Positions 766 through 32,272 of a stretch of DNA of 38,072 nt are shown piece after piece. Source of the DNA: Methylocystis sp. (GTDB lineage: Bacteria > Pseudomonadota > Alphaproteobacteria > Rhizobiales > Beijerinckiaceae). Position 1 is the first letter of the stretch, and the number at the start of each line of letters is the position of its first letter. The DNA is taken from the NCBI GenBank assembly GCA_022843525.1, contig JALHNR010000004.1:1-38072 (forward strand). Reading direction: 5' to 3'. The position numbers and the translations under genes are program-made. A model generated the notes under the pieces. It worked only from the letters and a program-made list of their open reading frames with translations. It did not search any database and was not told the origin of the DNA.

Positions 766-794
766 AGGCACCTATCTAATGAAGTGCCAATTAT

Positions 795-810
795 AAGTCA
801 ATACTGACTT
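795..810. promoter_or_regulatory. Operator-like palindrome, site 1
   Basis: Reads AAGTCAA-TA-CTGACTT, one of 17 copies of the AAGTCAG-NN-CTGACTT palindrome. It lies between the M-like and L-like tail genes and touches the M stop codon. Confidence 0.75.
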
Positions 811-1156
811 ATGTTTCAAGTCCGAAGTATTGCTCAAAGGTCGCGGTGATCGAATGAGCTTCATCCTTGCCGCGAGCGACCTTGGTGCAGGTCCATTTCC
901 GAATGTCGCCCTCGTCCACGTCATAGTAGAACGGAATGCAGCCCTTCTTGGCCTTGAGCCAGTTCTGGATGGTCAGCGCGTCCGCGGCCAGCAGCGTGTC
1001 CCAGGTCAGCGAGACGACGTCCTTGACGCTGTTGATGCCATCTTCGAGCTCTTGGGTGTAGCCGTCGCCGAACTCCGCCTTCTTGGTCTTGAAGGTGGTG
1101 TCGATCTTGGTGCCGGGGCTCTGGCGCAGCGGAGGCGCAAATGTGTCGAGTGCCAT
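809..1156 (-). CDS. Minor tail protein M-like
   Basis: This 115-residue protein resembles lambda gpM (about 109 residues, Phage_min_tail family), which acts at the tail tip. The family-like pattern FGDGYTQELEDGIN is followed by a Trp-containing stretch (SLTWDTL) and a conserved-looking WLKAKKG segment. The ATG at 1156 has GGAGG six bases upstream. It sits between the tape measure and L, as in lambda (H-M-L-K). The identification is good because sequence style, length and gene order agree. Confidence 0.82.
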   Translation of the reverse strand: MALDTFAPPLRQSPGTKIDTTFKTKKAEFGDGYTQELEDGINSVKDVVSLTWDTLLAADALTIQNWLKAKKGCIPFYYDVDEGDIRKWTCTKVARGKDEAHSITATFEQYFGLET

Positions 1157-1158
1157 AA

Positions 1159-12498: not shown

Positions 12499-13401
12499 TT
12501 AGATGTTGGTGACGCCCTTCAGGCGGGCGACCGCGTGGGTAGCCTTCAGGGCGGCGCCGACATACCACTTGACGCGGTAGCGGACGGCGTCCTTGTTCTG
12601 GATCGTGCCGATTTCCTCGACCTTCAAACCAGCGGCTTCGCCACCGACGATGCCGTGGAAGCCGACGGACTCGTCGAACTTGATCGCGTAGATCGAGGTC
12701 GTGACCGTGCTGGTGCCCTGGACTTCATCGGCGGTGATGAAATCGTTGATGATGATGGGCATGCCATCAATCGCGGGAACCGGGCGGCCGAAGTTCGGCA
12801 GCATGATGGTGTCGGCAGCGTTGCCGTTGAAGCCGCGGAGCAACGCCTTCAGCGCACGCCAGGTGCCCTGACGCATCATGAAGCAGTCGGCGCCGAGCTT
12901 GACGGCATCCTTCAGCTCGTCGAGCGCGGAGAACGTGACGGCCGCGCCATTGACGCCGGCAACCAGGGTCTGGGCGGCGGGGGTCAGCACCTTCAGGCCG
13001 TCGAACTCTTTCGGGTTGACGCCGTTGTTGCCGTTGACCATCGTCCGCTTCAGCTTGCGGGTCAGAGCCTTCGCCTTGGAAGCGATCTGAATCGCCAGCT
13101 GCGGGTTGGCGTCGGACTGCGTCGACAGGAGAAACTTGTCCATGTCAACGTCGCCAGCCAGAATGCGCAGACGGGTGGTGACCTCGGTAAAGGTCGCGGC
13201 GCCCTCAGGAATCGCTTCGTAGGGATCGAGGAAAGCGCCTTCGCTGATCTCGTTCTCGCGATTGTAGAGGTAGGCCTTGCCGTCGATGCTCTTGAAGGGC
13301 ATCAGGGCAAACATTTCCTCGCGATCGATGATCTCTTCGATCACGCCGCGCTCCAGGAGGTCCTCCGAGAGTTTGTTGGCTTCGACTTCGAGAAGGGGCA
13401 T
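12499..13401 (-). CDS. Major capsid protein (HK97 fold)
   Basis: A 300-residue protein with features of HK97-fold capsid subunits of the 300-residue class. The N-terminal arm has SEDLLERGVIEEIIDREEMFALMPF, broken here by acidic turns. The middle has LTRKLKRTMVNGNNG, and the C-terminal domain has GMPIIINDFITADE and YAIKFDESVGFHGIVG. It follows the scaffold and portal genes. AAGGAG lies seven bases before the ATG. It is framed by two operator sites upstream, and by an operator plus a terminator downstream, so it is a separately controlled unit. Confidence 0.9.
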   Translation of the reverse strand: MPLLEVEANKLSEDLLERGVIEEIIDREEMFALMPFKSIDGKAYLYNRENEISEGAFLDPYEAIPEGAATFTEVTTRLRILAGDVDMDKFLLSTQSDANPQLAIQIASKAKALTRKLKRTMVNGNNGVNPKEFDGLKVLTPAAQTLVAGVNGAAVTFSALDELKDAVKLGADCFMMRQGTWRALKALLRGFNGNAADTIMLPNFGRPVPAIDGMPIIINDFITADEVQGTSTVTTSIYAIKFDESVGFHGIVGGEAAGLKVEEIGTIQNKDAVRYRVKWYVGAALKATHAVARLKGVTNI

Positions 13402-14623: not shown

Positions 14624-16198
14624 TTACTTGGTCTCCTTGGTGACTTGACCTTGCTTCTTCTCCTTGGGCGCCTTCGTCTTGGCCTTTGTCTTTCCCGTCG
14701 CCGGGAATGCCTCGGGCTGACTTGCCGCCTTCAGATCGGACGCGAGGGTCATCACGTCTTCTTGGGATAGCGGCCAATCGGCGAGATCGGCCTCCATCTT
14801 CGTTCGCAAGTCGGCCGCAATGCGCGGGAACAACTTGTCGATCACCTGCCGCATTTGCTCTTGCCGCAGGGCTTTCGGCGCATCCACGAGGGCCAGTCTC
14901 TCGGCGATCGTGAATTCGTCAAAAAGGCTTCGGGTGTCAAAGGTGTCCGGATATTTCACCAGCTCGGCCTCAAGCGCGGCTTTGCCGTTCCACTTCATGA
15001 CCAGGTTGACGATCTTGTTCTCGGCGTTCTCCAGACTGTCGGCCTTGGAGGTCAGCAGCGAGTTCATGCGCTCGAAATCGTAGGCCTTGGCGACACCCGA
15101 CGAGTTGTCGATGCCCATGCCATTGTCCTGCTTGGTGCGCTCGCCGGCCATGCCGATGGTGTGGTAGATCTCATTGATGATCTTGTTGATCACCGTGATG
15201 ATCAGCGTCGCCTGCTTGACGTCCGGCGAAATGTATTCGGGCTTGGCACCGGCCTCGCCGTCATAGGCGAAGATGCGCTTGGTGCCCATTTCGATCAGGG
15301 CGTCGTATTTGTCGGTGCCCGGCATCAGGCCCTGCGCCGGCATCACCAGCTGGCTGAAGGTCTGATCCTGGATGATCGCGTCCACATTCGACAGGTAGTT
15401 GCCGCAGGCGCGATCGAGATAGGCGATGTCGTCGATCAGCGCGGGCGCCGAATACTTGCCGTCGCCGATGACGTGATCGACCGCAAACACCGGCACTTCG
15501 CCGAGATCATGCACAAACGGCGTGCCGGCGACGACGATGAAATCCTTGGGCTTCTTGCCCTGCTCGATCTTGAACAGCTGCCAGTAATTGCGGGTCCAGA
15601 GCCGATACTGACAGGTGACATCGCCGGACGAGTTGATCGGATCGGCGTCGTCACGGACATGCTCGCGGATCAGGATCCAGCTCAGCTCGCCGTCTTCGGT
15701 GAAGCCCATATCGAGAGCGTCCTGGGGGCTGACGAGATAGACGTAGACTCGCGCCTTCGCGGCTTTGGCGTCCGCAACCGAGATCACCCCTTCGGCGACC
15801 GAGGTATCAGTGACGACATAGACGCGGCCGAGCTTCGAGGTCGCCGACCCTACCAGCTTCATGAACTGGTTGATGTCGAGATTCTCGAAGGTGGCCTTTT
15901 CCCAGAAGGTCTTGATCTCCTGCGGAGCGTCGGCGCCGCGGGTGACCGGAGACTTGAAGATGTATTTCTGGACGAGATCGACGACCTCGCGGGTATGGTT
16001 GAAGCGATAGGCGCGATCGACGCGGGCCTTGTATTCCTTGGCGCCTTCCTTGACGTAGCGGAAGATGTTGGTCTTGAACCACTCGCGGCCGCCCTCATAG
16101 GTGGCTTCGAGGAAGTCCCAATGGGGCAGCTTCGCGGCGTATTCGGGATGACGCCGGGCCAGAAACTTTCGCAGTTTTGTCTGTAGATCGTCGGCCAA
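14624..16198 (-). CDS. Portal protein
   Basis: A 524-residue protein between terL and scaffold. Portal-like features are YRFNHTREVVDLVQKYIFKS, WILIREHVRD, and the mid-protein helix KPEYISPDVKQATLIITV with NEIYHTIGMAGERTKQ and GIDNSSGVAKAYDFERMNSL. It would form the dodecameric DNA gateway at one capsid vertex. No ATG opens the frame. The TTG at 16198 is preferred because AAGGTG lies six bases before it; another TTG at 16216 lacks such a site. The end is Lys-rich. Operator site 7 lies 34 bases upstream. Confidence 0.85.
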   Translation of the reverse strand: MADDLQTKLRKFLARRHPEYAAKLPHWDFLEATYEGGREWFKTNIFRYVKEGAKEYKARVDRAYRFNHTREVVDLVQKYIFKSPVTRGADAPQEIKTFWEKATFENLDINQFMKLVGSATSKLGRVYVVTDTSVAEGVISVADAKAAKARVYVYLVSPQDALDMGFTEDGELSWILIREHVRDDADPINSSGDVTCQYRLWTRNYWQLFKIEQGKKPKDFIVVAGTPFVHDLGEVPVFAVDHVIGDGKYSAPALIDDIAYLDRACGNYLSNVDAIIQDQTFSQLVMPAQGLMPGTDKYDALIEMGTKRIFAYDGEAGAKPEYISPDVKQATLIITVINKIINEIYHTIGMAGERTKQDNGMGIDNSSGVAKAYDFERMNSLLTSKADSLENAENKIVNLVMKWNGKAALEAELVKYPDTFDTRSLFDEFTIAERLALVDAPKALRQEQMRQVIDKLFPRIAADLRTKMEADLADWPLSQEDVMTLASDLKAASQPEAFPATGKTKAKTKAPKEKKQGQVTKETK

Positions 16199-16232
16199 TA
16201 CAGCACCTTGGGGCAATCGGAATTCAAACTGT

Positions 16233-16258: not shown

Positions 16259-17527
16259 TCAAATCGAGATACCGAACGCATCCTTGGCGCGCCAGGGGAA
16301 CTCGATGTCGATGCAATAGCCGGTGGCGTCGGTCGGATGCTCCATGCCCTGGGTCTTGTCGACCTCGCGGGATCCGGGCTTGTAGATGGTCTGCTCGAAG
16401 CCGGCGATGGTATGCTTGCAGGTCGAGTTGATCCGCATTTTCACGCTGCCGTCGGCCGACTTCCACATCCGGTTCACCGCATTGACGCGATCGGCGATCT
16501 TGGGATGCTTGCGCTTGGCCTTGATCCAGCGGAACCCGGCATCCTTGAGAATGTCGATGTCAGATTCGCCCCTGCCCTTGGTCGAGCGCTGGGCGCCGGC
16601 AGGATCCGGATAGATCGTGATCTGCTTCATCCACTTGAAATAGCGTCGCGACAATTCGTCCGCGGTCTCCTGAGTGTTGGAGCCGCGCAGCACGACCTCG
16701 TCGACGATCCAGATCTCGCCATTGGGCTGCGGCTGCATGATGACCGAGGACATCGGGTCGATGTTGAAATCCTGCCCCACCCAGATCGGGAGCCGAGCGT
16801 TGAACTGATAGGAGCCGACATGGGTCTTGCGATCGAAGGCATAATAGACCCGGCCCGACATCGTCTCGAACGAGGCTTCGAACTCCTGGCGGAACGATTT
16901 CTCGTCCATATCGGAGCGCGCAGCCTCGATTTCCTCCTTCGGAATGAAGGGCGAGGTGATGGTCGGGAACTGCCAGGATTTCCACGGATTGAGCCGCTTG
17001 CGGCCCTTGGCGTCCAGGAATGTGTCGCCGCGCTGGCCCAGCATGTAGACGTCGTAGAGCCAGTTAAAGGACTTCGGCGTGCCGATGATGATGACCTCGC
17101 CGAGCGTGGTGGCGAGCGTCGGGCGGAGCACCTTATACCAGGTGTCGGGCCGAATATCCTGGGCCTCGTCGATGATGACCAGATGCAGACCGACGCCGCG
17201 CAGCGTGTCGGGCTTGTCGGCGCCCTTCAGCTCGATCCGAGTGCCGTTGATCAGGCGGATAGTCATCCGCGTTTCGTTGTAGGTATGCACCCACTTTCGC
17301 GGGATCGATTCCTTCAACTCGTCCCACATAATGCCGCGGGCCATGGCGTAGGTCGGCGCCACATACCAGATCAGCTGCTTGACCTTGACCATGCGCTTGC
17401 AGATCGCCAGCTTGGCAAGCTGCGTCTTGCCCCAGCGCCGGCCGGCCACGACGCATTTGAAGCGGCGATGGTCCTGAAAGACCTCGCGCTGCTTGCCGTG
17501 CATCTTTAGGACTTGGCGATGCGCCAT
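16259..17527 (-). CDS. Terminase large subunit
   Basis: A 422-residue packaging motor. The ATPase has Walker A VAGRRWGKTQ at residues 27-36 and Walker B LHLVIIDEAQD with Asp120-Glu121; motif III-like IIIGTPKS follows. The nuclease part has WVGQDFNIDPMS with likely metal ligand Asp253 and WIVDEVVL with Asp276. It would translocate and cut DNA at the portal. The ATG overlaps the terS stop by one base (TGATG). Length is typical for the family. Confidence 0.95.
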   Translation of the reverse strand: MAHRQVLKMHGKQREVFQDHRRFKCVVAGRRWGKTQLAKLAICKRMVKVKQLIWYVAPTYAMARGIMWDELKESIPRKWVHTYNETRMTIRLINGTRIELKGADKPDTLRGVGLHLVIIDEAQDIRPDTWYKVLRPTLATTLGEVIIIGTPKSFNWLYDVYMLGQRGDTFLDAKGRKRLNPWKSWQFPTITSPFIPKEEIEAARSDMDEKSFRQEFEASFETMSGRVYYAFDRKTHVGSYQFNARLPIWVGQDFNIDPMSSVIMQPQPNGEIWIVDEVVLRGSNTQETADELSRRYFKWMKQITIYPDPAGAQRSTKGRGESDIDILKDAGFRWIKAKRKHPKIADRVNAVNRMWKSADGSVKMRINSTCKHTIAGFEQTIYKPGSREVDKTQGMEHPTDATGYCIDIEFPWRAKDAFGISI

Positions 17528-20701: not shown

Positions 20702-21090
20702 GCGCCGACATCCTCCGGATCATCGCCGTCTTCGATCTCGACATGCCCCCCGTTAGGGGTGACGCCGAAACGGGTGGAGTTGCTGTAGATGCAGTCGCTG
20801 ACCTGCTCCTTGAGGGACTCGGCTGCGATATTCAGCAGCGCGAGATCGATAAAGGTGATGTCGTCATGAACCGGCATTGTGGAGATCGGCGAACCCTCTC
20901 CGCTCAGCGCGATGAAGGCGAGACAGCGCATTTCACCGGCCTTGATCTGTTCGACCAGGCGCTCGGCGACCTTCAGCGCGGATTCGTCAATCTTCACCGC
21001 TTCGGGCGCGTCTTCGGCGGCGGCGACCTGCGCCACGAACGGCTTGCGGTCGAGGCGGACGATCTTGTCGGGACCGGTATCGATGGTCAT
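20698..21090 (-). CDS. Hypothetical protein
   Basis: A 130-residue acidic protein with KVAERLVEQIKAGEMRCLAF and IALSGEGSPISTMPVHDDIT, a pattern seen in uncharacterised phage proteins but with no function I know. It overlaps both neighbours by four bases (ATGA, GTGA), so it is made together with the ParB-like and ABC proteins. Confidence 0.7.
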   Translation of the reverse strand: MTIDTGPDKIVRLDRKPFVAQVAAAEDAPEAVKIDESALKVAERLVEQIKAGEMRCLAFIALSGEGSPISTMPVHDDITFIDLALLNIAAESLKEQVSDCIYSNSTRFGVTPNGGHVEIEDGDDPEDVGA

Positions 21091-21761
21091 GACAGATATC
21101 CGCTATCGCCGATGAACTTGATGAAGGCATCGGCGCCCTTGAGCCCCGTCTCGGCCTCGATCGCGGTCATGAAGGTGCGAACCGACCGGCTCTGGGCCAC
21201 GGTGACCCGCTTGAAGCCCAGGGCGTCGCCGACCGGCGCCGCGGTGAGGTCGATCTGTTTCTCCTTCTCGACATTCTCGGCCTTCTGGGTCTCGACGGCG
21301 TCGCCGATGTCCTCAACGAAGATACCGTCGTCAATTTCGCCGAAGTCGGCCGTCAGCTTGATCAGTTCCTCGTCGCCGAAACCCAGCGAGGTCAGGTCGT
21401 AATCGGCTTCCTTCAGCAGCATCAGTTCGGCCTTGAGCAGCTCGGTGTCGTAGTCCAGCGATACGGTCTGATTGTCCGCGATCCGCAGCGCCATCGCCTG
21501 TTCGGGCGTCAGGTCACGGCGCACGATCACGGCGACATGAGTCCAGACCAGGTGCTTCGCGGCGAGCCAGCGGCCGTGGCCGGCAATAATGGTGCCGTCG
21601 GCCTCGACCTGAATGGTATTGGCGATGCCATGCGTGGCGATCGAGCGCGACAGCTTCTCGATGTGCTCCGGCGGGTGCTTCTTCGAATTGGTCGGCGAGG
21701 CCTTGAGCTGATCGATCTCCCAGCGCTCGGTCGGCAACTTGGTCACGTCAATTGTCGTCAT
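21087..21761 (-). CDS. ParB-like nuclease-domain protein 1
   Basis: A 224-residue protein with the ParB/sulfiredoxin-type domain: LKASPTNSKKHPPEHIEKLS, then HGIANTIQVEADGTIIAGHG and RWLAAKHL. The GHGRW..A motif and the ALRIADNQT segment are those of phage ParB-like domains often joined to or beside DNA methylases. The C-terminal half is unfamiliar. Such proteins bind or cut DNA or hydrolyse nucleotide. The ATG at 21761 is preferred over a TTG two codons earlier; it overlaps the Zn-ribbon gene by 14 bases. Confidence 0.8.
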   Translation of the reverse strand: MTTIDVTKLPTERWEIDQLKASPTNSKKHPPEHIEKLSRSIATHGIANTIQVEADGTIIAGHGRWLAAKHLVWTHVAVIVRRDLTPEQAMALRIADNQTVSLDYDTELLKAELMLLKEADYDLTSLGFGDEELIKLTADFGEIDDGIFVEDIGDAVETQKAENVEKEKQIDLTAAPVGDALGFKRVTVAQSRSVRTFMTAIEAETGLKGADAFIKFIGDSGYLS

Positions 21762-21936
21762 GGTCAAAGCCCATCTTGGAGTAAATCTTCATCAGCTCGT
21801 TGTCGGTCAGCTCGCGATCACGGACTTTCGCCTCGAAAAACTCGCCATTGCCGCATGGCAGACACTTCCGGGAGGGCCGATTCGGATTGAAGAACTTGCA
21901 ATCCGAACATTCGTCGTGGCGCGGCTTCACGAACAT
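21748..21936 (-). CDS. Small Zn-ribbon protein
   Basis: 62 residues with two CxxC pairs, DECSDCKFF and KCLPCGNGEFF, 15 residues apart, likely to bind one zinc ion. The rest is charged. It lies between two ParB-like genes and upstream of a GNAT gene. Mu Com, also a 62-residue zinc protein, activates translation of the GNAT-fold Mom, but sequence similarity is not evident. The ribosome site AGGA lies inside operator site 10. Confidence 0.72.
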   Translation of the reverse strand: MFVKPRHDECSDCKFFNPNRPSRKCLPCGNGEFFEAKVRDRELTDNELMKIYSKMGFDHDDN

Positions 21937-21938
21937 GA

Positions 21939-21954
21939 AAGTCAGTCCTGACTT
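21939..21954. promoter_or_regulatory. Operator-like palindrome, site 10, merged with a ribosome site
   Basis: Reads AAGTCAG-TC-CTGACTT on the plus strand. On the minus strand the GA centre makes AGGA nine bases before the Zn-ribbon ATG. Site 12 has exactly the same geometry. Confidence 0.8.
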
Positions 21955-22613
21955 TCGTCTGCGGTCGCGCCGAAGATCTGGTGGACCAGCGCATCGCCGG
22001 CATTGGTGAGATCATCCGCGGCCGTGAAGCCTTGGCGCTTCTTCACCTTGGTCAGAAGCTCTGTGATCTTCTCGGAATCGGCGAGGGTCACCTTGAAACG
22101 CATGATGGTGTGAGTCTTGGCGATCTTCTCGGGCGAAGGTTCCGTCGGCCGCTCGTCGGTTTCTTCGAATCCACCGGGCAGATCGAGCTCGTCCAGAGCT
22201 ATATTGACACTTGAGAAGATCGAGTTCAGGTCGGCATCGGTATAGGGAAGAACATTTTGCAGCTCGGCGTCGGCGCCAATCTCTTCCAGCAGCTTCGCCA
22301 ACTCGATGGTGTCGTCCTGACCGTAGCGGGCGTTGTCGGCCAGTGTGATCTTTCGCGCGAGGATGTCGTCGATCGGGCCAAGGTTGAAGACGGGAACCTC
22401 AGTCAGTCCCACCTCGCGCGCGGCGTCCCAGCGGTGCTCGCCGCCCAGAATCTCATATTCGTCTTCCGCGATCTGCCGCACCACGATCGGCTTGAACATG
22501 CCGAACTGACGGATGGATTCCTGCAGCTTGATCTCGTTTTCGGGCGAGACGTGGTTGCTGTTCCAGGGACTGGGCTTCAAAAGGGCGATCGGAACGGTAA
22601 TTTGCTTTGTCAC
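21942..22613 (-). CDS. ParB-like nuclease-domain protein 2
   Basis: A 223-residue protein with a clear ParB N-terminal domain: LLKPSPWNSNHVSPENEIKL, GMFKPIVVRQ, EYEILGGEHRWDAAREVG and ITLADNARYGQ. The GGEHRW motif matches the GxxR-type box. The start is GTG at 22613 with AGGA upstream. It is the first gene of the minus-strand operon and shares a 65-base divergent promoter region, containing operator site 11, with the helicase gene. It is only distantly similar to the other ParB-like protein. Confidence 0.82.
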   Translation of the reverse strand: MTKQITVPIALLKPSPWNSNHVSPENEIKLQESIRQFGMFKPIVVRQIAEDEYEILGGEHRWDAAREVGLTEVPVFNLGPIDDILARKITLADNARYGQDDTIELAKLLEEIGADAELQNVLPYTDADLNSIFSSVNIALDELDLPGGFEETDERPTEPSPEKIAKTHTIMRFKVTLADSEKITELLTKVKKRQGFTAADDLTNAGDALVHQIFGATADESQD

Positions 22614-22678: not shown

Positions 22679-24262
22679 ATGAAACCTGTCCTCACTCTCG
22701 TCGCCAACGCCACCGTCGCGAAGCTCCACAACATGGATGCGGCGGCAAAAGACGTGGTTACCCAGGTGCTTAGCTACATGGTCGAGGGTCACGATCACAT
22801 GCAGGCGTTCAAGACGGGCGGCTGGAACGGTCGATCGAGCTTCTTCACCAGGCGCGACTGCACCTTCCCGGCCGGCTTCGTTCACATGGTTCACGCCGAG
22901 CTGACGCGCAAAGGCTATCAGGTCCGCACCGGTATCAAGGCGGCGGCGCCGCCGCTCGGGCCTGAATTGCCGATCGTCGACGAATTCGGCAACGACGATC
23001 CGAAATACGACTATCAACTGAAGGCGCTGCGCCAGGTCGAGAAGCACAGGCGCGGCATCATCCGGGTCGCGACCGGTGGCGGCAAATCCAAGATCGCCAA
23101 ATTGATCACGGCGCGCTACCGGCGCATGACGATGTTTCTGACCACCCGCGGCGTGCTGATGTATCAGATGAAGAAGGCGTTCGAGCAGGACTGCAAGTTC
23201 ACGGTCGGCGTGATCGGCGACGGGGTCTATTCCCCGACCAAGGGCATCAATGTCGGCATGGTGCAGACCTTCGTGGCCCAGCTCAAGGAGCCGAAGCTGA
23301 TCGACGAGCGCGGCGCGGTGATCGCCGAGAACATCAACAAGAGCTTGAACCTGACCAAGGATCAGATCGCCAAGCTGGCGCAGGAGAGTTTCAACAGCAA
23401 GGTCCAGATTCGGACCCGACTGTTGAAACTGCTCTCGATGGTCGAGGTGGTGATCGGCGAGGAAGCCCACGAGGCCGGCGGCAACTCCTATTACGAGATT
23501 CTGAGCCACTGCAAGAACGCCCAGATTCGGATCGCGCTGACCGCGACGCCGTTCATGCGCTCGGCCGAAGAGGACAATATGCGCCTGATGGCTGCGTTTG
23601 GCCCGATTTTGCTGACCGTGTCGGAGAAGACCCTGATCGACCGCGGCGTGCTGGCCAAGCCCTATTTCGAGTATCGCTCGCCGAAGCCGGCCGACAAGCT
23701 GCGCAAATCCTCGCCCTGGCAGCGCGCGGTCGATATCGGTATCGTCAATGGGGAATACCGGAACCAGGATGTCGTCAATCTCGCCGTGAAGGGCCGCGAC
23801 CACGGTCTGCCGGTGCTGATTCTGGTCGCGCGCAAGAAGCACGGCCCGGTGCTGGTCGAGCTGCTCCGCGCGCGCGGCATGCGGGTTCGCCAGATCCAGG
23901 GCGAGAACGACCAGGCCGAGCGCGAGCGGGCGCTGGCCGCACTGGAGGCCGGCGAGATCGACGCGCTGATAGGCACCACTATCGTTGACGTCGGCGTCGA
24001 CGTGCCCGGAATCGCGCTCTTGATCCTTGCCGGCGGCGGCAAGGGTGAGATTCAGCTCCGGCAGCGGGTCGGTCGCGGGCTGCGCGCCAAGAAGACCGGC
24101 CCCAACGTCACCTTTGTCATCGATTTCACCGACGAATTGAACTCCACGCTGCGCGACCACGCGCGGATGCGGCGCGCGCTGATCGAGGCGACGCCGGGGT
24201 TTGCCGAGGGCATCGTAAAAAGTCTGCCCTGGCAGCTATTTTCTCAGCGCAAAGCTGCGTGA
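22679..24262 (+). CDS. UvsW-like superfamily 2 helicase
   Basis: A 527-residue DNA helicase. About 100 N-terminal residues precede the motor: YDYQLKAL (Q-like) at 110-117, motif I ATGGGKS at 131-137, motif II EEAH at 261-264 (Glu replaces the usual Asp), motif III ALTATPF at 286-292, and motif VI QRVGRGLRAKK near the end. The overall plan resembles T4 UvsW, which remodels recombination and replication forks. It begins the plus-strand cluster. A long open frame on the opposite strand is a shadow. Confidence 0.9.
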   Translation: MKPVLTLVANATVAKLHNMDAAAKDVVTQVLSYMVEGHDHMQAFKTGGWNGRSSFFTRRDCTFPAGFVHMVHAELTRKGYQVRTGIKAAAPPLGPELPIVDEFGNDDPKYDYQLKALRQVEKHRRGIIRVATGGGKSKIAKLITARYRRMTMFLTTRGVLMYQMKKAFEQDCKFTVGVIGDGVYSPTKGINVGMVQTFVAQLKEPKLIDERGAVIAENINKSLNLTKDQIAKLAQESFNSKVQIRTRLLKLLSMVEVVIGEEAHEAGGNSYYEILSHCKNAQIRIALTATPFMRSAEEDNMRLMAAFGPILLTVSEKTLIDRGVLAKPYFEYRSPKPADKLRKSSPWQRAVDIGIVNGEYRNQDVVNLAVKGRDHGLPVLILVARKKHGPVLVELLRARGMRVRQIQGENDQAERERALAALEAGEIDALIGTTIVDVGVDVPGIALLILAGGGKGEIQLRQRVGRGLRAKKTGPNVTFVIDFTDELNSTLRDHARMRRALIEATPGFAEGIVKSLPWQLFSQRKAA

Positions 24263-25863: not shown

Positions 25864-26496
25864 ATGCTTGCGATCGCCTGTCTGTCCCAAAAGGGCGGGG
25901 TCGGTAAGTCCACACTCGCTCGACTGATCGCCCAAACCTATGCCGCGGGCGGCTGGCAGGTGAAAATCGCGGACTTCAACACCAAACAGAAAACCTCCGT
26001 GGACTGGGCGGCGCTGCGCATGTCCCAGAATGTCGAGCCCGAGATCCCCGCCGAAGCCTTCACCGAGGTCGCTAGAGCCACCAAGGGCGACCTCGATCTG
26101 ATCGTGTTCGACGGCAAGCCTGATTCCGACACCCAGACCCTGCGCCTTGCCCAGTCCGCCGAGCTGACGATCATCCCGACCGGCGTGTCGGCCGACGACC
26201 TGGTCCCGCAGATCAGATTTGCCCAGGAGCTCAAGAAGCACGGCATCGACCCGCGCAAGATCCTTTTCGTTCTCAACAAGACCACAGACAGCACCGCGGC
26301 AACCACCGACGCCCGAAACTTCATCGCCGGCGCCGGCTTCAGAGCATGCATCACCCATATTCCCAACAAGACCGCCTTCGTAAACGCTCATAACTCCGGC
26401 CGAACTCTGGCCGAAACCGACTTCCCCTCGCTCAACGAGCGCTCCACCGCCCTCGCCAACGAAATCGTCGAAGCCCTCAAAGAGATCACCGAATGA
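25864..26496 (+). CDS. ParA-family partition ATPase
   Basis: A 210-residue ParA of the short type without N-terminal DNA-binding domain. Walker A is SQKGGVGKST (residues 8-17), followed by VKIADFNTKQKTSVDW (a variant of the DxDxQ region) and DLIVFDGKPDSD (switch region), then IIPTGVSADDL. It is followed by a ribbon-helix-helix partner overlapping in ATGA, as in type Ib parFG-like systems. GGGAGCG lies before the ATG. It would move or segregate phage DNA, which suggests a plasmid-like prophage state. Confidence 0.88.
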   Translation: MLAIACLSQKGGVGKSTLARLIAQTYAAGGWQVKIADFNTKQKTSVDWAALRMSQNVEPEIPAEAFTEVARATKGDLDLIVFDGKPDSDTQTLRLAQSAELTIIPTGVSADDLVPQIRFAQELKKHGIDPRKILFVLNKTTDSTAATTDARNFIAGAGFRACITHIPNKTAFVNAHNSGRTLAETDFPSLNERSTALANEIVEALKEITE

Positions 26497-27278: not shown

Positions 27279-27673
27279 CTATTGGCCAAGGATAAGTGGA
27301 AATCCGAGCTGGCGACACCCGAGGCATAGGGGTCAGTGCAGCGCAGCATATCTAAGACTTCAGCAATATTGTTACTCTGCGAGCCCGGCAAACGACACAT
27401 TGTTGCGTGTCTCTGTAGCACGTCTAGCAGCGTCACTGAGCGACGCTAGTCGAGCGCAGCACGTTACAGCGCGCGCTACAGCGAACGAATCAGCGAGCAC
27501 TCTCTGACGATCTAATCAGCTATTGCGCATGCGATGCTAGATCATGCGCGCAAGCGTATGTAGATCAGTCAGCACTGACTGTAACATTTCGTGATTAGAC
27601 AATGTTTGTTTAGTCGCTATGTTCATAGTCACAAGACGCAATCAAGCGACTTGCTACTTCGAAAGAAACGAAC
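27279..27673. other. Gene-free stretch leading into the GG/CC-free island
   Basis: I see no convincing gene. The last GG/CC in the stretch is CCCGG at 27384-27388; from 27389 on there is none. Short inverted repeats are present, such as GCGCATG/CATGCGC (27525-27548) and AGCGTC/GACGCT near 27428-27446, and operator site 13 lies at 27566-27581. Promoters for the island genes must lie here. Confidence 0.6.
27566..27581. promoter_or_regulatory. Operator-like palindrome, site 13
   Basis: Reads CAGTCAG-CA-CTGACTG, 92 bases upstream of the first island gene. The palindrome itself is compatible with the GG/CC ban. Confidence 0.72.
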
Positions 27674-28252
27674 ATGACTGCAATCAACACGCTTCGCGCT
27701 TCGCTCTCGTCGCTCGTCGTCGCTCGTCTCGCAAGCGACAAAGCACAGTCGATGACTGCGAACAATCGCAAGAAACTGTCAGACTTCGCTGACGTTGTGT
27801 CGCGCAACGATGCAATCGCTGAGCTTCTCGTCGCTTGCAGCTATAGCGCAAGCGCTGTCAATCAGAACGTCTACAGCGTCGAGAAAGTCGCTGACATCGC
27901 TATCACTGCGAGCAGCGACAAGCGCAACGCTCTGAGCGTCTACTGCGCAGCGACGTTCGCGAGCATGATCGCTCTCGAAAAAGCAGACATCGAGATCACG
28001 CGCGACGTGATCGCAAGCGTCTGCACAAACGACATCAAGACGAAATACGATGCGAAGATCAAGACGACGCGCGTTCAAAGCGTCAAGTCGAAATCGACTG
28101 TTGCAACGCAGCACAATTCGACGATCAATGCGATGCTCGCATTGAGCATGTTCAACGTCACGCGCAACGCTGCGAATGACGAAAAGTTCACGCTCAATCG
28201 CGAAAGCGTTGCAGTCAAAGCGATTGCGTCGCGTCTCGAACTCGCTTTGTAA
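27674..28252 (+). CDS. Protein of the GG/CC-free island 1 (no Gly, Pro or Trp)
   Basis: 192 residues with no glycine, proline or tryptophan, as forced by the lack of GGN, CCN and TGG codons. It is otherwise well composed, helical, and rich in Ala, Ser, Val, Lys and Asp. The first part has LSSLVVARLASDKAQSMTAN; a middle segment has ALSVYCAATFASMIALEKAD; the last third is Lys/Thr-rich and basic. No classical GGAGG ribosome site can exist; GAAAG lies ten bases before the ATG. I recognise no family. Codon choice differs sharply from neighbours. It is likely a real gene, because the frame is long, starts after an operator and is followed by a hairpin. Confidence 0.75.
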   Translation: MTAINTLRASLSSLVVARLASDKAQSMTANNRKKLSDFADVVSRNDAIAELLVACSYSASAVNQNVYSVEKVADIAITASSDKRNALSVYCAATFASMIALEKADIEITRDVIASVCTNDIKTKYDAKIKTTRVQSVKSKSTVATQHNSTINAMLALSMFNVTRNAANDEKFTLNRESVAVKAIASRLELAL

Positions 28253-28261
28253 GCGACTAAC

Positions 28262-28285
28262 GCAGCGCGCGCAAATGCGCGCTGC
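28262..28285 (+). terminator. GC-only hairpin between the island genes
   Basis: GCAGCGCGC (28262-28270) and GCGCGCTGC (28277-28285) pair perfectly around GCAAAT. It is followed by ACTCTCTTTC and lacks a clean T run, so it is a weak terminator or an RNA-stability hairpin. Confidence 0.5.
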
Positions 28286-28323
28286 ACTCTCTTTCATCTT
28301 CTGATAAACAGAAAGCACAAGCT

Positions 28324-28527
28324 ATGTCATACTTTGATTGCATCATGAGCGCGACACAATCGCAGCAAGTCGCGAAGCGTCATATCAGCAAGACTGCAAA
28401 AGCGCTTGCGCGCGCTGCGTTCGATTGTGTCGATCTGAGCGAAGTCATTGACTTTGACGAAAGCGAGATCTCAGACATGCAAGAACAGCGTGTCAGATAT
28501 GCAAACGCGCATCACGAATTCGATTGA
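28324..28527 (+). CDS. Protein of the GG/CC-free island 2 (no Gly, Pro or Trp)
   Basis: 67 residues without Gly, Pro or Trp: a basic N-terminal half (QQVAKRHISKTAKALARAAF) and a very acidic C-terminal half (DLSEVIDFDESEISDM). No GG-containing ribosome site is possible; AGAAAG lies upstream. It is followed by operator site 14 and a terminator. Family unknown. Confidence 0.68.
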   Translation: MSYFDCIMSATQSQQVAKRHISKTAKALARAAFDCVDLSEVIDFDESEISDMQEQRVRYANAHHEFD

Positions 28528-28534
28528 CTTCTGA

Positions 28535-28550
28535 TAGTCAGAACTGACTT
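28535..28550. promoter_or_regulatory. Operator-like palindrome, site 14
   Basis: Reads TAGTCAG-AA-CTGACTT just after the second island gene. Sites 13 and 14 bracket the island genes. Confidence 0.75.
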
Positions 28551-28559
28551 ACAAGATCG

Positions 28560-28584
28560 AGCTATGCGACAACGCATAGCTTTT
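28560..28584 (+). terminator. Rho-independent terminator of the plus-strand cluster
   Basis: AGCTATGCG (28560-28568) and CGCATAGCT (28573-28581) pair perfectly around ACAA, followed by TTT. It obeys the GG/CC ban and ends rightward transcription before the converging leftward units. Confidence 0.82.
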
Positions 28585-28824
28585 AGTTGCGTATATCGAG
28601 TAAACAACGCAATAAAATTACTCAGAAAAGACTTGACATATGTCCGGCGGGACCGGTCGCCCGCCAGGGCGACCAACCCCATGGTTCCCCAATATATCCC
28701 CAAAGCGCTTCCTATCGACCGGTTCCTAAACCGGATTATTCCATGGTTTATTTGTGGCGGAAATGAGCACCGAGGCATGACCCCGGTGCTTGGTGGTTTC
28801 CTTGGGGCTCGAACCCAATACCGA

Positions 28825-28998
28825 CTATTCCTCGGAGGTTCCGGGCACCATCCACACCGAGGACGTCAATCCGTAGGTTTTGCGATGGCGGATCGAGGAG
28901 TCCGAAATCAGTGCGGCGATCTCCGACACCGGGCCATTGAACCCGATGGCTTCACAGGTCCGGCTGGTTACACCGGCAAGGCTGTAGATCACGATCAT
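28825..28998 (-). CDS. Small hypothetical protein
   Basis: 57 residues beginning MIVIYSLAGVTSRTCEAIGF, with AALISDSSIRHRK and SSVWMVPGTSEE at the end. AAGGGA lies before the ATG and the gene follows the 27-residue membrane peptide by 12 bases. It is the last gene of the leftward early cluster. Converging genes are separated from the plus-strand terminator by about 240 bases that hold several hairpins (GGTCGCCC/GGGCGACC at 28654-28673; AGCACCG/CGGTGCT at 28766-28791). Confidence 0.6.
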   Translation of the reverse strand: MIVIYSLAGVTSRTCEAIGFNGPVSEIAALISDSSIRHRKTYGLTSSVWMVPGTSEE

Positions 28999-29010
28999 GG
29001 CGCAGTCCCT

Positions 29011-29094
29011 TCAGGTGACGATGAGAAAGATCAGCAGGAACAACCCGAGGGGCGCCCCGATCAGGCTGCAGGCGAACACCTCGCGGGCGCTCAC
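29011..29094 (-). CDS. 27-residue single-span membrane peptide
   Basis: Starts with GTG at 29094 in a GTGA overlap with the upstream stop, the same coupling used elsewhere in this genome. The sequence is MSAREVFACSLIGAPLG followed by LFLLIFLIVT, one hydrophobic span ending the protein. Confidence 0.5.
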   Translation of the reverse strand: MSAREVFACSLIGAPLGLFLLIFLIVT

Positions 29095-29330
29095 TGGGCC
29101 ACCGCGTGGTCGATCTGCGCCAAAACCAGCTTGAGGTGGCTCTCGGCGTTCCCGAGCTGCAGGTCGGAAAGACTGAGATTTCCACCGAGCGTCGCGCGCT
29201 TGGCTGCCTTGAGCCACCTTTGCGCGCCCTTCAGGTTGTTCATCAGGGCGTTGTGACCGAATCCGACGATCCGCATGGCGTGCTCGACGGCATTGAGGGC
29301 GCGGGCGATGTCGGTGAGGCGCTTGTTCAT
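29091..29330 (-). CDS. Hypothetical early protein
   Basis: 79 residues, helical: LTDIARALNAVEHAMRIVGF, then LKGAQRWLKAAKRA and LQLGNAESHLKLVLAQID. It is the first gene of the unit starting at leader element 7 and is coupled to the membrane peptide. No known domain is seen. Confidence 0.65.
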   Translation of the reverse strand: MNKRLTDIARALNAVEHAMRIVGFGHNALMNNLKGAQRWLKAAKRATLGGNLSLSDLQLGNAESHLKLVLAQIDHAVAQ

Positions 29331-29339
29331 TTTCGTTTC

Positions 29340-29400
29340 TCTCGCGGTTCGCTGTTGCTGTAAGTCAACAATGACTGATCGCGAGACGGAATGCGGCTGG
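29340..29400 (-). promoter_or_regulatory. Start-associated leader element 7
   Basis: Box 1 is CCAGCCGCATTCC (29388-29400, minus strand). In place of box 2 it has operator site 15. The stem TCTCGCG/CGCGAGA (29340-29346 with 29380-29386) encloses that operator. It precedes the 29330 start. Confidence 0.7.
29362..29377. promoter_or_regulatory. Operator-like palindrome, site 15
   Basis: Reads AAGTCAA-CA-ATGACTG, a weaker copy, at the box 2 position of leader element 7. Confidence 0.6.
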
Positions 29401-29535
29401 GAGTAATTGGTAGAAATTGCTTCACCGCGGCCGGTGGCCTGGCCGGCCGGACTCCGAGGCCTGCGCCTGGTCTTGGCCTGGGGATCAAGGTCCGGCCTGG
29501 CCTACACACCGCATCCCATGGCGCGGCCTGGTCAG

Positions 29536-29560
29536 AAGAAAGGAGCGCAACGGGCGCCCC
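29536..29560 (-). terminator. Terminator after the 55-residue gene
   Basis: On the minus strand GGGGCGC (29560-29554) pairs with GCGCTCC (29548-29542), including one G-U, around a five-base loop, followed by TTTCTTCTG. It ends the unit that begins at leader element 6. Confidence 0.65.
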
Positions 29561-29566
29561 TTGGTC

Positions 29567-29734
29567 TCAGTTCGCGTGGAAGCTCCGCCGCTGCTCGTCC
29601 TTCTTGAGACGCTCCCGCCGATAGGCCTCGGCGCCGGCCTTGGTGTTGAACTCGCGATCGCCGACGACCTCCTCGGTCGCACTCTGGAGAAAGAAGGTGC
29701 CGTCGGAACAACGCTTGATGGCATAGTGGGTCAT
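29567..29734 (-). CDS. Small hypothetical early protein
   Basis: 55 residues: MTHYAIKRCSDGTFFLQSAT, then EEVVGDREFNTKAGAEAYRR. This reads like the short beta-hairpin plus helix proteins common in phage early regions. It is the sole gene between leader element 6 and a terminator. Confidence 0.65.
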   Translation of the reverse strand: MTHYAIKRCSDGTFFLQSATEEVVGDREFNTKAGAEAYRRERLKKDEQRRSFHAN

Positions 29735-29757
29735 CGGTTCTCTCGCGGTTTGCGCAT

Positions 29758-29804
29758 GATCGCGCTGCACATTCATCGCACAGCGCGATCTGGTTTGCGC
29801 GTGG
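29758..29804 (-). promoter_or_regulatory. Start-associated leader element 6
   Basis: Box 1 CCACGCGCAAACC (29792-29804), nine bases, then TGTGCGATGAATG (29782-29770). GATCGCGCTG (29758-29767) pairs perfectly with CAGCGCGATC (29781-29790), a ten-base stem that includes box 2. Box 1 abuts the stop codon of the upstream gene. Confidence 0.78.
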
Positions 29805-30074
29805 CTATACGAAGGGAGCGAAAGCCTCCTCGTCCTCGCAATCGGTCACGAACACGCTGACCGCGTAATCGGTCATCAGGAAGCGATGGAAGTCGGTGAA
29901 CGCCTCGGACAGCTTGTCGAACTCCTTGGCGTAGAAGCGGTCGTCGTTCTGAGTGGCCTCGACCGAGAACTTTCGATCGTCACCGAGGTTATGTCTGGTG
30001 ACGATGTCGATCACGCGCAGGAACGTGCCGGGACCAACTTCTGCCTTAACCAGTGTCGTTGCTTCGATCGCCAT
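29805..30074 (-). CDS. Hypothetical early protein
   Basis: 89 residues: MAIEATTLVKAEVGPGTFL, RHNLGDDRKFSVEATQNDDR, and an acidic end (VTDCEDEEAFAPFV). GAGGAG lies before the ATG at 30074. It forms a single-gene unit under leader element 5. Function unknown. Confidence 0.65.
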   Translation of the reverse strand: MAIEATTLVKAEVGPGTFLRVIDIVTRHNLGDDRKFSVEATQNDDRFYAKEFDKLSEAFTDFHRFLMTDYAVSVFVTDCEDEEAFAPFV

Positions 30075-30093
30075 GTTTCGCTCCTCGTTGTCG

Positions 30094-30109
30094 CTGTCAG
30101 TGCTGACTT
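30094..30109. promoter_or_regulatory. Operator-like palindrome, site 16
   Basis: Reads CTGTCAG-TG-CTGACTT and overlaps box 2 of leader element 5, 20 bases before the 30074 start. Confidence 0.7.
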
Positions 30110-30139
30110 GTCGCACGTCTCGATCTGGAATGCGCGTGG
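30094..30139 (-). promoter_or_regulatory. Start-associated leader element 5 with operator site 16
   Basis: Box 1 CCACGCGCATTCC (30127-30139), nine bases, then CGTGCGACAAGTC (30117-30105), which runs directly into the palindrome CTGTCAG-TG-CTGACTT (30094-30109). Here the palindrome supplies the inverted repeat of the leader. Confidence 0.75.
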
Positions 30140-30342
30140 AAACATCAGGCAGCTTGCGTGGCGCGTTCATGGTGTGATCTGCGTTCCGATGCAGCAGCCG
30201 GCCATGGCAACGCACCACGGAGCTTCCCTGACGTTCGGCTATAGGAATATCCAGCGCCTTGCCTACGCCTCGGGTCCCATGGACCCTGCCGGTTCCGAAA
30301 TATGCGCCAGCTACCGGTTCCCATGGTGACATATAGGCAACA

Positions 30343-30369
30343 GAAAAGGCGATCCCTTTCAGGACCGCC
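30343..30369 (-). terminator. Terminator after the 299-residue early protein
   Basis: On the minus strand GGCGGTCC pairs with GGATCGCC (one G-U) around a six-base loop and is followed by TTTTCTG. The spacer 30140-30342 beyond it has no gene but contains three CCATGG palindromes and two copies of CCGGTTCC. Confidence 0.8.
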
Positions 30370-30379
30370 CTCTCTGGAC

Positions 30380-31279
30380 TTAGGCTGCTTGGAGAACAGC
30401 CTCCAGCTTCGCGACGATGGGGGCATCCGTCAGCGCGAAGATCGGGTTCTTCTCGGATCCGGAACGCGACACGACCCCGAGGTCGACCAGTGCCTGCATC
30501 GTGGAGGAGGCCTGGGTGGGCGCGGTCGAGGCGCTGACCGTGTGGCGAATCAAGAGGTTCTCGATCGCCTTGTTGGTCAGACGGATCTTGTCACTCACCG
30601 CGGCTTTCGCCACATCCATCGTGAAGGCATGCGCCGAACGCCGCATCTTGAAGAGGCTGCGCATGATGGCGTTGTTGACGGCGTTGTTGATGGCTCCGCC
30701 ACTGACCCCATAGAGGACATCGGCGAGCTTGCCGAGGGCGTAGACGTTGTAGCGCTTGCTGCCTTGCACCGAGCGGTTGATCTGCGCCTCGTTGAAGCCA
30801 GCGACCAGCATCGCCGCGGTCGCACGCTTGGTGGCGAGCTGGGCACGCGCCTTCTTCAGAGTGCGCTGGATGTTGTCGGAGCCGCCGATCAGTTCGTAGG
30901 CAGCACGATCATCCATCGCTTGCGCCACGCTCATGACGCCGAGGTCGATGGCATCCTGGCTGATCTCGGACAACGCCTTGTCCCAGCTCGAAGCATCGGC
31001 CGGCACCGTCACGGCCTGCGGAGCTTCGACTGCCTCGGCCGGCGCCTCGATCACCTCGATCGCCGAGGTAACCTGGTCGCTGGCCTCGAGGATCTGAACT
31101 GCCTGGTCCAGCTCGGCTTCGGTGATCATGCCGATCTCCTCGGTGGTCAGCGTGTCGGCCAGCGCCTCGTTGAGGAGTGCGTCGCCGAGCGTCTCGATCG
31201 CCATCATGTGGATCGCCTCGTTGGCCTCGGTCTCGATGGCAGCAACGGCGGTCTTGGTCAGCTTGGATTTCTTGGCCAT
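30380..31279 (-). CDS. Large early protein of unknown function
   Basis: 299 residues. The N-terminal 90 are acidic, Ala/Glu-rich and helical (EAPAEAVEAPQAVTVPADAS). The middle has RTLKKARAQLATKRATAAML, and GGAINNAVNNAIMRSLFKMR follows. The C-terminus (MQALVDLGVVSRSGSEKNPI, FALTDAPI) looks like a winged-helix end. It is the only gene between leader element 4 and a strong terminator, so it is probably highly and separately expressed. The ATG at 31279 follows the leader; longer upstream frames run through non-coding DNA. Confidence 0.75.
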   Translation of the reverse strand: MAKKSKLTKTAVAAIETEANEAIHMMAIETLGDALLNEALADTLTTEEIGMITEAELDQAVQILEASDQVTSAIEVIEAPAEAVEAPQAVTVPADASSWDKALSEISQDAIDLGVMSVAQAMDDRAAYELIGGSDNIQRTLKKARAQLATKRATAAMLVAGFNEAQINRSVQGSKRYNVYALGKLADVLYGVSGGAINNAVNNAIMRSLFKMRRSAHAFTMDVAKAAVSDKIRLTNKAIENLLIRHTVSASTAPTQASSTMQALVDLGVVSRSGSEKNPIFALTDAPIVAKLEAVLQAA

Positions 31280-31297
31280 TTGGGTGTCTCTCGCTGT

Positions 31298-31358
31298 TGT
31301 GCGCGCAAGATTGCGTCGCAAAGAGACAATCGCACAGCAATTTATGGAATACGGCTGG
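31298..31358 (-). promoter_or_regulatory. Start-associated leader element 4
   Basis: Box 1 CCAGCCGTATTCC (31346-31358), nine bases, then TGTGCGATTGTC (31336-31325). TGTGCG and CGCACA (31298-31303 with 31331-31336) pair, with a longer loop than in the other copies. Confidence 0.78.
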
Positions 31359-31431
31359 CAAGGGATGGGAGACCTGTAGGCGATGGACCGCTGGAGCGAC
31401 CTGGCGGATCCCGGCCATGGCAAGGCCTCTC

Positions 31432-31583
31432 GCACCCGGAAGTGTGCCACGGTTCGCCTCACTCCCGCTAAGATATAAGTTAAAAGAAGAAGTAAGTAAT
31501 AGTGACAGCGAGGACACGGAAATGGAAATCGCTCCGGGAGCGGAAAACCATGGCCTGCCAAGGAGAAGGTCACTTCCGGGTGC
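31432..31583. repeat. Complex inverted-repeat element, copy B
   Basis: GCACCCGGAAGTG (31432-31444) and CACTTCCGGGTGC (31571-31583) are exact 13-base inverses. Between them lies AGTGACAGCGAGGAC then ACGGAAATG (31501-31524), nearly identical to the right arm of copy A at 18.3 kb, preceded as there by an AT-rich run (AAGTAAGTAAT). Confidence 0.65.
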
Positions 31584-31740
31584 GGGAAGCGTCCTTGGTG
31601 AATGCTCCCACGCTGCCTGGTGGCTTTCGCCACGGATCGTTCCCACGTTCGGTCAGTCGGGATTGTCTACCGGTTTCAGGATTCAGGAAATTGATGGCGT
31701 TTCACGGCCTTGGTCGATGATGGCAAAAGCGCGTTGTGGG

Positions 31741-32050
31741 TAGATGTCGAGCCTGCCCGCCTTCTCGTCTCTCTTTCTCTTCCCCTATTACGCTCTCTCC
31801 CCGTCTATGCGCTCTCGTGGTCGTTCGCGTGTCTCTTGGCTCTGTTCGGTGTCATGTGGTGCTCTACGTCTCTCTGTGCTCTCCGTGGTCGTTTTGAGGG
31901 TCGATTTGATATGTATTGGATGCGACCGTTGTTGAGCTTTTGGTGTTTTGAGCTTGTTGGTCTGTTCTACGTCGGGATTGTCGTCGGTGCGCTTGGTCTC
32001 TCTCGTCTGAATTTGGGCGCTCGGGTCTAGGTTGTGCTTGGTCGTCTGAA
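31741..32050. other. Adenine-depleted, thymine-rich block
   Basis: In 31741-32040 I count 22 A in 300 bases (about 7 percent) on the plus strand, while T is near 38 percent. The minus strand is correspondingly T-poor and A-rich. No gene explains the bias. Confidence 0.75.
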
Positions 32051-32183
32051 TTTTGGGGTTTGATTTTCGGGTTCCCGCTGATCTTGTTTCTACCGAAAAT
32101 TTTTCCTGAGAACCTTTTGTGAAACAAAATGGAAACATAATTCCTATTGCATAAGCGATTAAACACCTGTTTCGATTGATGGA

Positions 32184-32272
32184 GTGAAATCGACCTGAAA
32201 TCGGAACTTGCTGCTCCGGGCCATGGTGATTGGCTAAAATGAAATCGGAACTGAGGTGTGTGAAATCGACCT
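32184..32272 (+). repeat. Four iteron-like direct repeats
   Basis: The core TGAAATCG occurs four times in two sequence types: GTGAAATCGACCT at 32184-32196 and 32260-32272, and TGAAATCGGAACT at 32196-32208 and 32240-32252. All are in the same direction. Confidence 0.7.

Follow-up and report, generated by a model that had tools for sequence, protein, structure and literature searches.

Why does a stretch of more than 1.2 kb contain not a single GG or CC, in genes and spacers alike? The window analyzed here is the whole 38,072-bp stretch of contig JALHNR010000004.1 of Methylocystis sp. (assembly GCA_022843525.1). A first-pass annotation, made from its letters alone, had claimed that both dinucleotides are completely absent from 27389-28643 and that the edges of this island are abrupt. 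A count over the window bears out both points: the 1255 bp contain 0 GG and 0 CC, compared to 72.7 and 86.8 predicted by composition, and the island is bounded by a GG at 27387-27388 and a CC at 28644-28645. In 1000 shuffles of the island the mean number of GG plus CC is 159.2 and the minimum 127. Such gaps are not common in the window, where the second-longest measures 72 bp, and 300 shuffles of the whole window give no gap above 85 bp. The G+C content of the island is 50%, compared to approximately 60% for the window, and G and C each account for 24-26% of its bases.

Genes and signals of the island

The island comprises a gene termed B, a small ORF termed ORF2, spacers and two hairpins, one of which is terminator-like by scan. 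Its features are:

27389..28643, no strand: GG/CC-free island (dinucleotide count and shuffles)
27596..27623, plus strand: weak promoter-like site 5' of B
27674..28252, plus strand: gene B, 192 aa, GG/CC-free; helical N-terminal part and winged-helix-like C-terminal part in the model
28262..28285, plus strand: GC-rich, terminator-like hairpin in the spacer between B and ORF2 (terminator scan)
28324..28527, plus strand: ORF2, 67 aa, GG/CC-free
28560..28585, plus strand: hairpin with arms 28560-28568 and 28573-28581 followed by TTT, a possible end of the unit

A promoter scan of the B region finds two sites against 1.0 expected, which is not above chance, and the hairpin at 28560-28585 is absent from the terminator-like sites of the scan. 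An ORF similar to ORF2 follows B in IMG/VR 3300048091 (L005:5556-5756). Judging from this layout, the island is a transcription unit with a control region, B, small ORF(s) and a terminator, and the purge coincides with the gene unit. As claimed earlier, neither of the two island proteins contains Gly, Pro or Trp. The further claim that nucleic acid, rather than protein, is the target of the ban is also supported, since synonymous shuffling of the B codons, which keeps the protein fixed, still predicts 18.9 GG and 46.1 CC.

Inspection by eye reveals ACAGAGAGA-type sequences instead of GGAGG in the start regions of the island genes. Also by eye, inverted repeats of the AAGTCAnnnnTGACTTA type, which may be operators, are seen near B. 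They are found at 27564-27583 and 28528-28560 in the window, at approximately 5.9 kb in L003 and at approximately 4.8 kb in L005.

A profile of B detects a second, longer paralog, termed A, which usually lies 1-3 kb from B (approximately 2 kb in the window) and has an ordinary GG/CC content:

30380..31279, minus strand: gene A, paralog of B, 299 aa, 60 GG and 73 CC (B-profile search)

A is present in 14 of the 17 elements searched, the remaining three loci being short on at least one side, and it also occurs in further Rhizobium and Sinorhizobium elements, in RHEph10 and in Pararhizobium p5. The 14 A genes contain 48-76 GG and 42-117 CC each. Pfam has no family for B or A and gives weak matches only. 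In PHROGs, phrog_9272 (function not known) matches three of 12 B members (best E 1.8e-5), and phrog_3932 matches one A member (E 0.008). A PDB sequence search, carried out with the B profile only, gives one match at E 0.78. The structure model of B has a pLDDT of 91.2 and a best VIA-align Z score of 8.8, to chains of MepR and MukBEF, and a Foldseek search with it returns no match below E 0.001. In the models of A and B alike, a helical part precedes a winged-helix-like one. Both are thus probably DNA-binding proteins, although the fold resemblance has only a middling score.

Purged and unpurged relatives

Homology and gene order identify the window as a piece of an SSU5-type phage-plasmid. A syntenic block of the SSU5 type is present that comprises the following genes:

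12499..13401, minus strand: major capsid protein homolog (match to annotated relatives)
14624..16216, minus strand: portal protein homolog (match to annotated relative)
16259..17527, minus strand: terminase large subunit (TerL), SSU5 type (homology)
21087..21767, minus strand: ParB-like protein 2 (homology)
21942..22613, minus strand: ParB-like protein 1 (homology)
22679..24262, plus strand: DEAD/DEAH helicase, a conserved neighbour (homology)
25864..26496, plus strand: ParA-type ATPase (homology)

The terminase-capsid-portal-ParB-helicase-ParA order is the same as in the SSU5-type phage-plasmids pLM21S1 (the subject of PMC5537653), B1VFA, V1VFA-S, pAMS5a and SSU5. The block is syntenic with Methylobacterium pAMS5a, a Shinella plasmid, an M. 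oryzae plasmid and the Rhizobium phages B1VFA and V1VFA-S. The TerL of the window is 58.8% identical to that of SSU5, 65.7% to RHEph10, 67.4% to Shinella, 68.3% to AMS5 and 70.7% to M. oryzae. A RepC-type replicon and a circular plasmid state are present in relatives; a repC homolog was not seen in the window, which covers 38 kb of an assembly in 488 contigs. Within this group pLM21S1, B1VFA, V1VFA-S and pAMS5a carry the island, whereas the M. oryzae member is unpurged.

Counting the window, 30 of 38 elements have a run of 400 bp or more without GG/CC or without GGV/BCC; excluding the eight elements obtained by a motif scan and picked for a long gap leaves 24 of 30. The 38 elements consist of 37 that were tabulated for their longest run, 29 of which have such a run, and L141; duplicates (L001, L002, L005, L006, L010, L016, L022-L026, L031, L032, L034-L036, L066, L123 and L142) had been removed before. 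The runs are 404-1531 bp long, the longest being that of pAMS5a. Named hosts of the elements are Rhizobium, Sinorhizobium, Shinella, Pararhizobium, Methylobacterium, Faunimonas and Pseudomonas, and cultured Rhizobium and Pseudomonas phages are among the island carriers. B homologs with 23-58% identity are located in similar islands: 18 of the 23 B genes counted lack GG and 12 lack both GG and CC, compared to approximately 20 GG and 45 CC expected for the same proteins. L013, L067 and L078 have no run of at least 400 bp but are free of GG over 644-816 bp on the B strand only, and L033 is partly relaxed, also with no such run. The Shinella and pAMS5a records, counted as a whole, contain a single island each; besides an adjoining 151-bp gap, all other gaps are shorter than 100 bp.

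Islands of 1137 and 1083 bp are also found in the Pseudomonas phages nickie and Nican01, and one of 1490 bp in L141, a relative of nickie. A search with the B profile found no similarity in the island protein of nickie and Nican01, and neither A nor B was detected in the nickie stretch.

The first-pass annotation had named relatives with ordinary GG/CC content in the homologous genes as something that would refute it. Two members show just that, the M. oryzae plasmid and IMG/VR 3300022749, and both fall inside a purged group of the tree. In the tree of 28 proteins the unpurged M. oryzae plasmid and L018 lie inside a five-member group with pAMS5a, L021 and L014 (support 100/100). Since they are nested among purged members, the ban was most simply lost there. 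Finally, no island is found in the examined stretches of Salmonella SSU5 (33.3 of 103.3 kb) and Stenotrophomonas ANB28 (46.4 of 108.4 kb).

Homologs of the lysis inhibitors RIIA and RIIB are encoded at 517-4472 in B1VFA and at 82924-86818 in pAMS5a, and RIIA occurs in 14 of the 17 records searched. RIIA was considered as a gene covarying with the ban, because it is present in pAMS5a, Shinella and B1VFA and not in M. oryzae; it is, however, missing from the purged V1VFA-S and pRlX6. phrog_1735 has the same first pattern, yet it is found in only seven of 17 records and many purged elements lack it. Thus, neither RIIA nor phrog_1735 follows the ban in the 17 records, among which one plasmid appears twice (as L002 and L019). 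Presence in pAMS5a, Shinella and B1VFA together with absence from M. oryzae is also seen for RIIB and for a gene of 93 aa.

Selection, residual sites and a probable place at the DNA end

V1VFA-S and pLM21S1 differ at 327 of 988 aligned island sites, and all 12 substitution types are present among the differences. Random placement of identical changes along the aligned island would create 71 new GG/CC, compared to 0 in either sequence. For five other pairs 20-36 new GG/CC are expected and 0-7 GG/CC are carried. The spectra of all six pairs are balanced, T>C and A>G being approximately as frequent as C>T and G>A, which argues against erosion by a deaminase or a mutational cause. The purge is conserved by selection. 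The ban is kept while the sequence diverges, a point raised by the first-pass annotation.

The GG that remain in some islands follow a rule. They are GGT in 33 of 34 cases in L124, 11 of 11 in L110, 21 of 23 in L014 and eight of 10 in L078, an excess over the flanks with p values from 6e-21 to 2e-4. This GGT/ACC rule holds on both strands in L124, L110 and L014, and on the template strand in L078. In L116, by comparison, all three residual GG are GGA, and L005 has mostly GGA (8/12). Residual GG in L017, L020, L027 and L033 show no third-base preference. A single third-base rule on both strands makes recognition of DNA probable, and judging from these residual sites the ban probably acts in this way. 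In 13 partly purged loci the coding strand has 50 GG compared to approximately 728 expected, and 140 CC compared to approximately 896. That GG is rarer than CC on this strand argues against a wholly strand-blind agent.

The island lies next to a short motif on its ParA-facing side:

27352..27362, plus strand: edge motif CTAAGACTTCA, consensus CTARGACTTCG

If a single mismatch is allowed, CTARGACTTCG is found at the ParA-facing island edge in 18 of 23 loci; nickie and Nican01 have the variant CTAAGACTTTG. B reads away from the motif in 12 of the 18 loci and towards it in six. Where ParA is visible, as in Shinella, B1VFA and M. oryzae, the orientation of the motif relative to ParA is constant despite the inversion of B, which suggests that the edge is a property of the DNA and not of B. 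The motif is retained in the unpurged M. oryzae plasmid and L018, and in ANB28. A scan of IMG/VR with the motif only returned 83 loci, of which 73 were dropped and 10 had an unusually long gap. Two of the latter were contigs already known (L066 is that of L030 and L123 that of L013), which left eight further elements. Seven of these have a B homolog, and the eighth, L124, has a minus-strand gene with a match to the profile of A (8e-11) but none to that of B. Two scan-derived elements, L110 and L117, come from pieces with 48-49% G+C.

In the printed loci, the inner island edge, as read by us, usually lies approximately 50-260 bp past the last gene or, if B is reversed, approximately 50-220 bp upstream of B. 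Exceptions are L005, where the strict run stops inside ORF2, and L013, where it stops in the last codons of B. In L021 the purge covers B but leaves out the DNA that separates it from the motif.

A paper that does not mention the island (PMC12509600) reports that the DNA of B1VFA and of V1VFA-S has direct terminal repeats, 3605 bp long by PhageTerm in the former and 3939 bp long by read mapping in the latter, for which PhageTerm was inconclusive. We mapped the two phages onto each other base by base, which placed 108,376 of 122,345 positions, endpoints being limited to mapped positions. A single interval fits both repeat lengths within 3 bp. It extends from 39631-39808 to 43236-43413 in B1VFA and measures 3940 bp in V1VFA-S, the exact length of 3939 bp being matched by none. 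Both A and B lie within this interval, whose right-end range includes the motif (43245-43255). From the published repeat lengths and this position of the motif we infer that the linear DNA of these two Rhizobium phages ends with the island, and that its outer edge would be within approximately 170 bp of the end of the virion DNA. Synteny suggests the same location for the island of the window. The inferred location at the DNA end, the edge motif, the twin gene, the GGT/ACC rule and the lineages lacking the ban are added to what the first-pass annotation described.

Possible causes of the ban

The reading we favour, to which we assign a probability of roughly one half, is that a putative DNA-acting system, host- or phage-encoded, has a site of no more than GG, or GGV in some lineages, and that the first-entering terminal unit, purged of this GG/CC core site, outlives the attack and rescues the infection. 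The phage family would thus probably keep a terminal gene unit GG/CC-free to survive a GG-directed attack or block. The unit would occupy the outermost position in the terminal repeat of an SSU5-type phage-plasmid and, by analogy with the pre-early genes of T5, would be exposed and expressed before any other DNA when a cell is newly infected. Selection would have removed the core site of the agent, in some lineages only GGV/BCC, and the purge would keep the unit intact and readable while the agent is active, before the remaining genome has entered or is protected. A purged unit at a DNA end is what one would expect if its function is needed before that point. Candidates for the agent are a nuclease, modification or silencing activity of the host, or an early activity of the phage. 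Protection from a GG-recognizing activity had already been proposed, and the pattern looks like it. Several observations argue against this reading: gene A lies in the same terminal repeat yet is unpurged; M. oryzae and L018 have no ban, and none is seen in the examined parts of SSU5 and ANB28; the strict run of L005 stops inside ORF2; GG is rarer than CC on the coding strand of the partly purged loci; neither RIIA nor phrog_1735 follows the ban; and palindromes are not generally avoided, which speaks against ordinary type II restriction as the agent.

The main alternative, which is possible though we consider it doubtful, is that the island spares the phage from its own weapon. A phage-encoded agent, directed for example by A or B, would silence, nick or cut GG-bearing DNA of the host and perhaps of superinfecting phages, and the B unit would be GG-free since its expression must continue during the action of the agent. 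The ban is common to phages of very different hosts, and Methylobacterium has purged and unpurged members, so that the ban does not follow the host genus. Moreover, it tracks the B unit in either orientation, and the twin A is present in most elements searched. However, the remaining phage genome is rich in GG, and M. oryzae has both A and B but no ban. In addition, L014, which tolerates GGT, and AMS5, which has none in B, share the same putative recognition-helix residues, as assigned here, in B and in A, and the nickie-type islands lack a detectable relative of B. A ban at the level of the transcript, in which an endoribonuclease or a special state of translation requires a B mRNA without GG (and CC), would explain why the purge coincides with a gene unit and why it is stricter for GG than for CC on the coding strand (2 versus 31 in L067, 0 versus 12 in L020). 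We rate it unlikely, as the surviving CC in L124, L110 and L014 are nearly all ACC, the complement of GGT, in line with one rule on both strands, and as the DNA 5' of B is purged as well.

That the island adjoins the probable end of the terminal repeat and the motif would suit a terminase of loose GG/CC specificity, against which the last 0.4-1.5 kb packaged had to be cleared to avoid premature cutting. This is quite unlikely because the M. oryzae terminase is so similar to that of the window (the most similar plasmid-borne one among the matches listed) and its DNA is unpurged; moreover, the DNA between B and the motif is unpurged in L021, and inner edges mostly follow genes. Some PAMs and many restriction sites have GG or CC at their core, which speaks for evasion of a host CRISPR system (NGG, CC) or of restriction by the DNA that enters first. 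Palindromes were counted in 18 pooled islands: GCGC (observed/expected 0.96), TCGA (1.04), TGCA (1.14) and ACGT (1.13) are undepleted, and ordinary type II restriction, a form of the restriction suggested earlier, was rejected as general palindromes are not avoided. Escape from an NGG-type CRISPR system, also suggested earlier, would require purging of the whole genome, whereas the remaining window is GG-rich, including gene A only 2 kb away; the ban also spans unrelated hosts. Evasion of either kind is thus very improbable. Least credible of all is a mutational origin, in which a targeted CC deaminase would have erased CC and GG. It would fit the lower G+C content of the island, but the six pairs show no excess of C>T or G>A, and G and C each still make up about a quarter of the window island.

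Other palindromes score lower in the 18 pooled islands (AGCT 0.68, AATT 0.56, TATA 0.64), and GTAC is strongly depleted, with six counted and 38 expected (0.16).

The closest known parallel is the first-step-transfer region of T5 and other tequintaviruses. Older work on T5 reportedly describes its insensitivity to restriction. According to PMC13250531, the pre-early genes of tequintaviruses lie in the direct terminal repeat and are injected and expressed first; EcoRI sites are lacking in the pre-early region of Bas29, by which the authors explain why EcoRI has little effect. A gene unit in a direct terminal repeat would be shared by B1VFA and V1VFA-S, and where the Bas29 region lacks the recognition sites of a nuclease, the islands lack GG/CC. 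In contrast to T5, it is the bare dinucleotide that is absent here over a whole unit, coding and non-coding, and only 0.4-1.5 kb are cleared, gene A of the same repeat not being included. Frequent nicking enzymes of the Nt.CviPII type are virus-encoded and have a 3-bp site with a CC core (CCD), in which the discriminating base is on the opposite side of CC from that in the rule of the islands. The first-pass annotation knew of no described mechanism. This agrees with the open-access literature (which mostly does not cover subscription papers), where no description of GG/CC-free islands was found among the titles listed; PMC10815195 gives genome-wide dinucleotide statistics for two other phages.

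Held by selection in phages of Pseudomonas and of Alphaproteobacteria, a ban on two dinucleotides that spans as much as 1.5 kb, coding and non-coding alike, implies a strong and widespread pressure at GG. Identification of the agent would bring to light an activity, used for defence, takeover or silencing, whose site is extremely short, and would explain how the phage protects its first-entering DNA. The islands offer a ready assay, in which GG-free and GG-bearing versions of one gene are compared.

Finally, CCATGG palindromes cluster beside several islands, in DNA that is very rich in GG and CC; examples are 28679-32221 in the window and 58425-61567 in NZ_CP006993.
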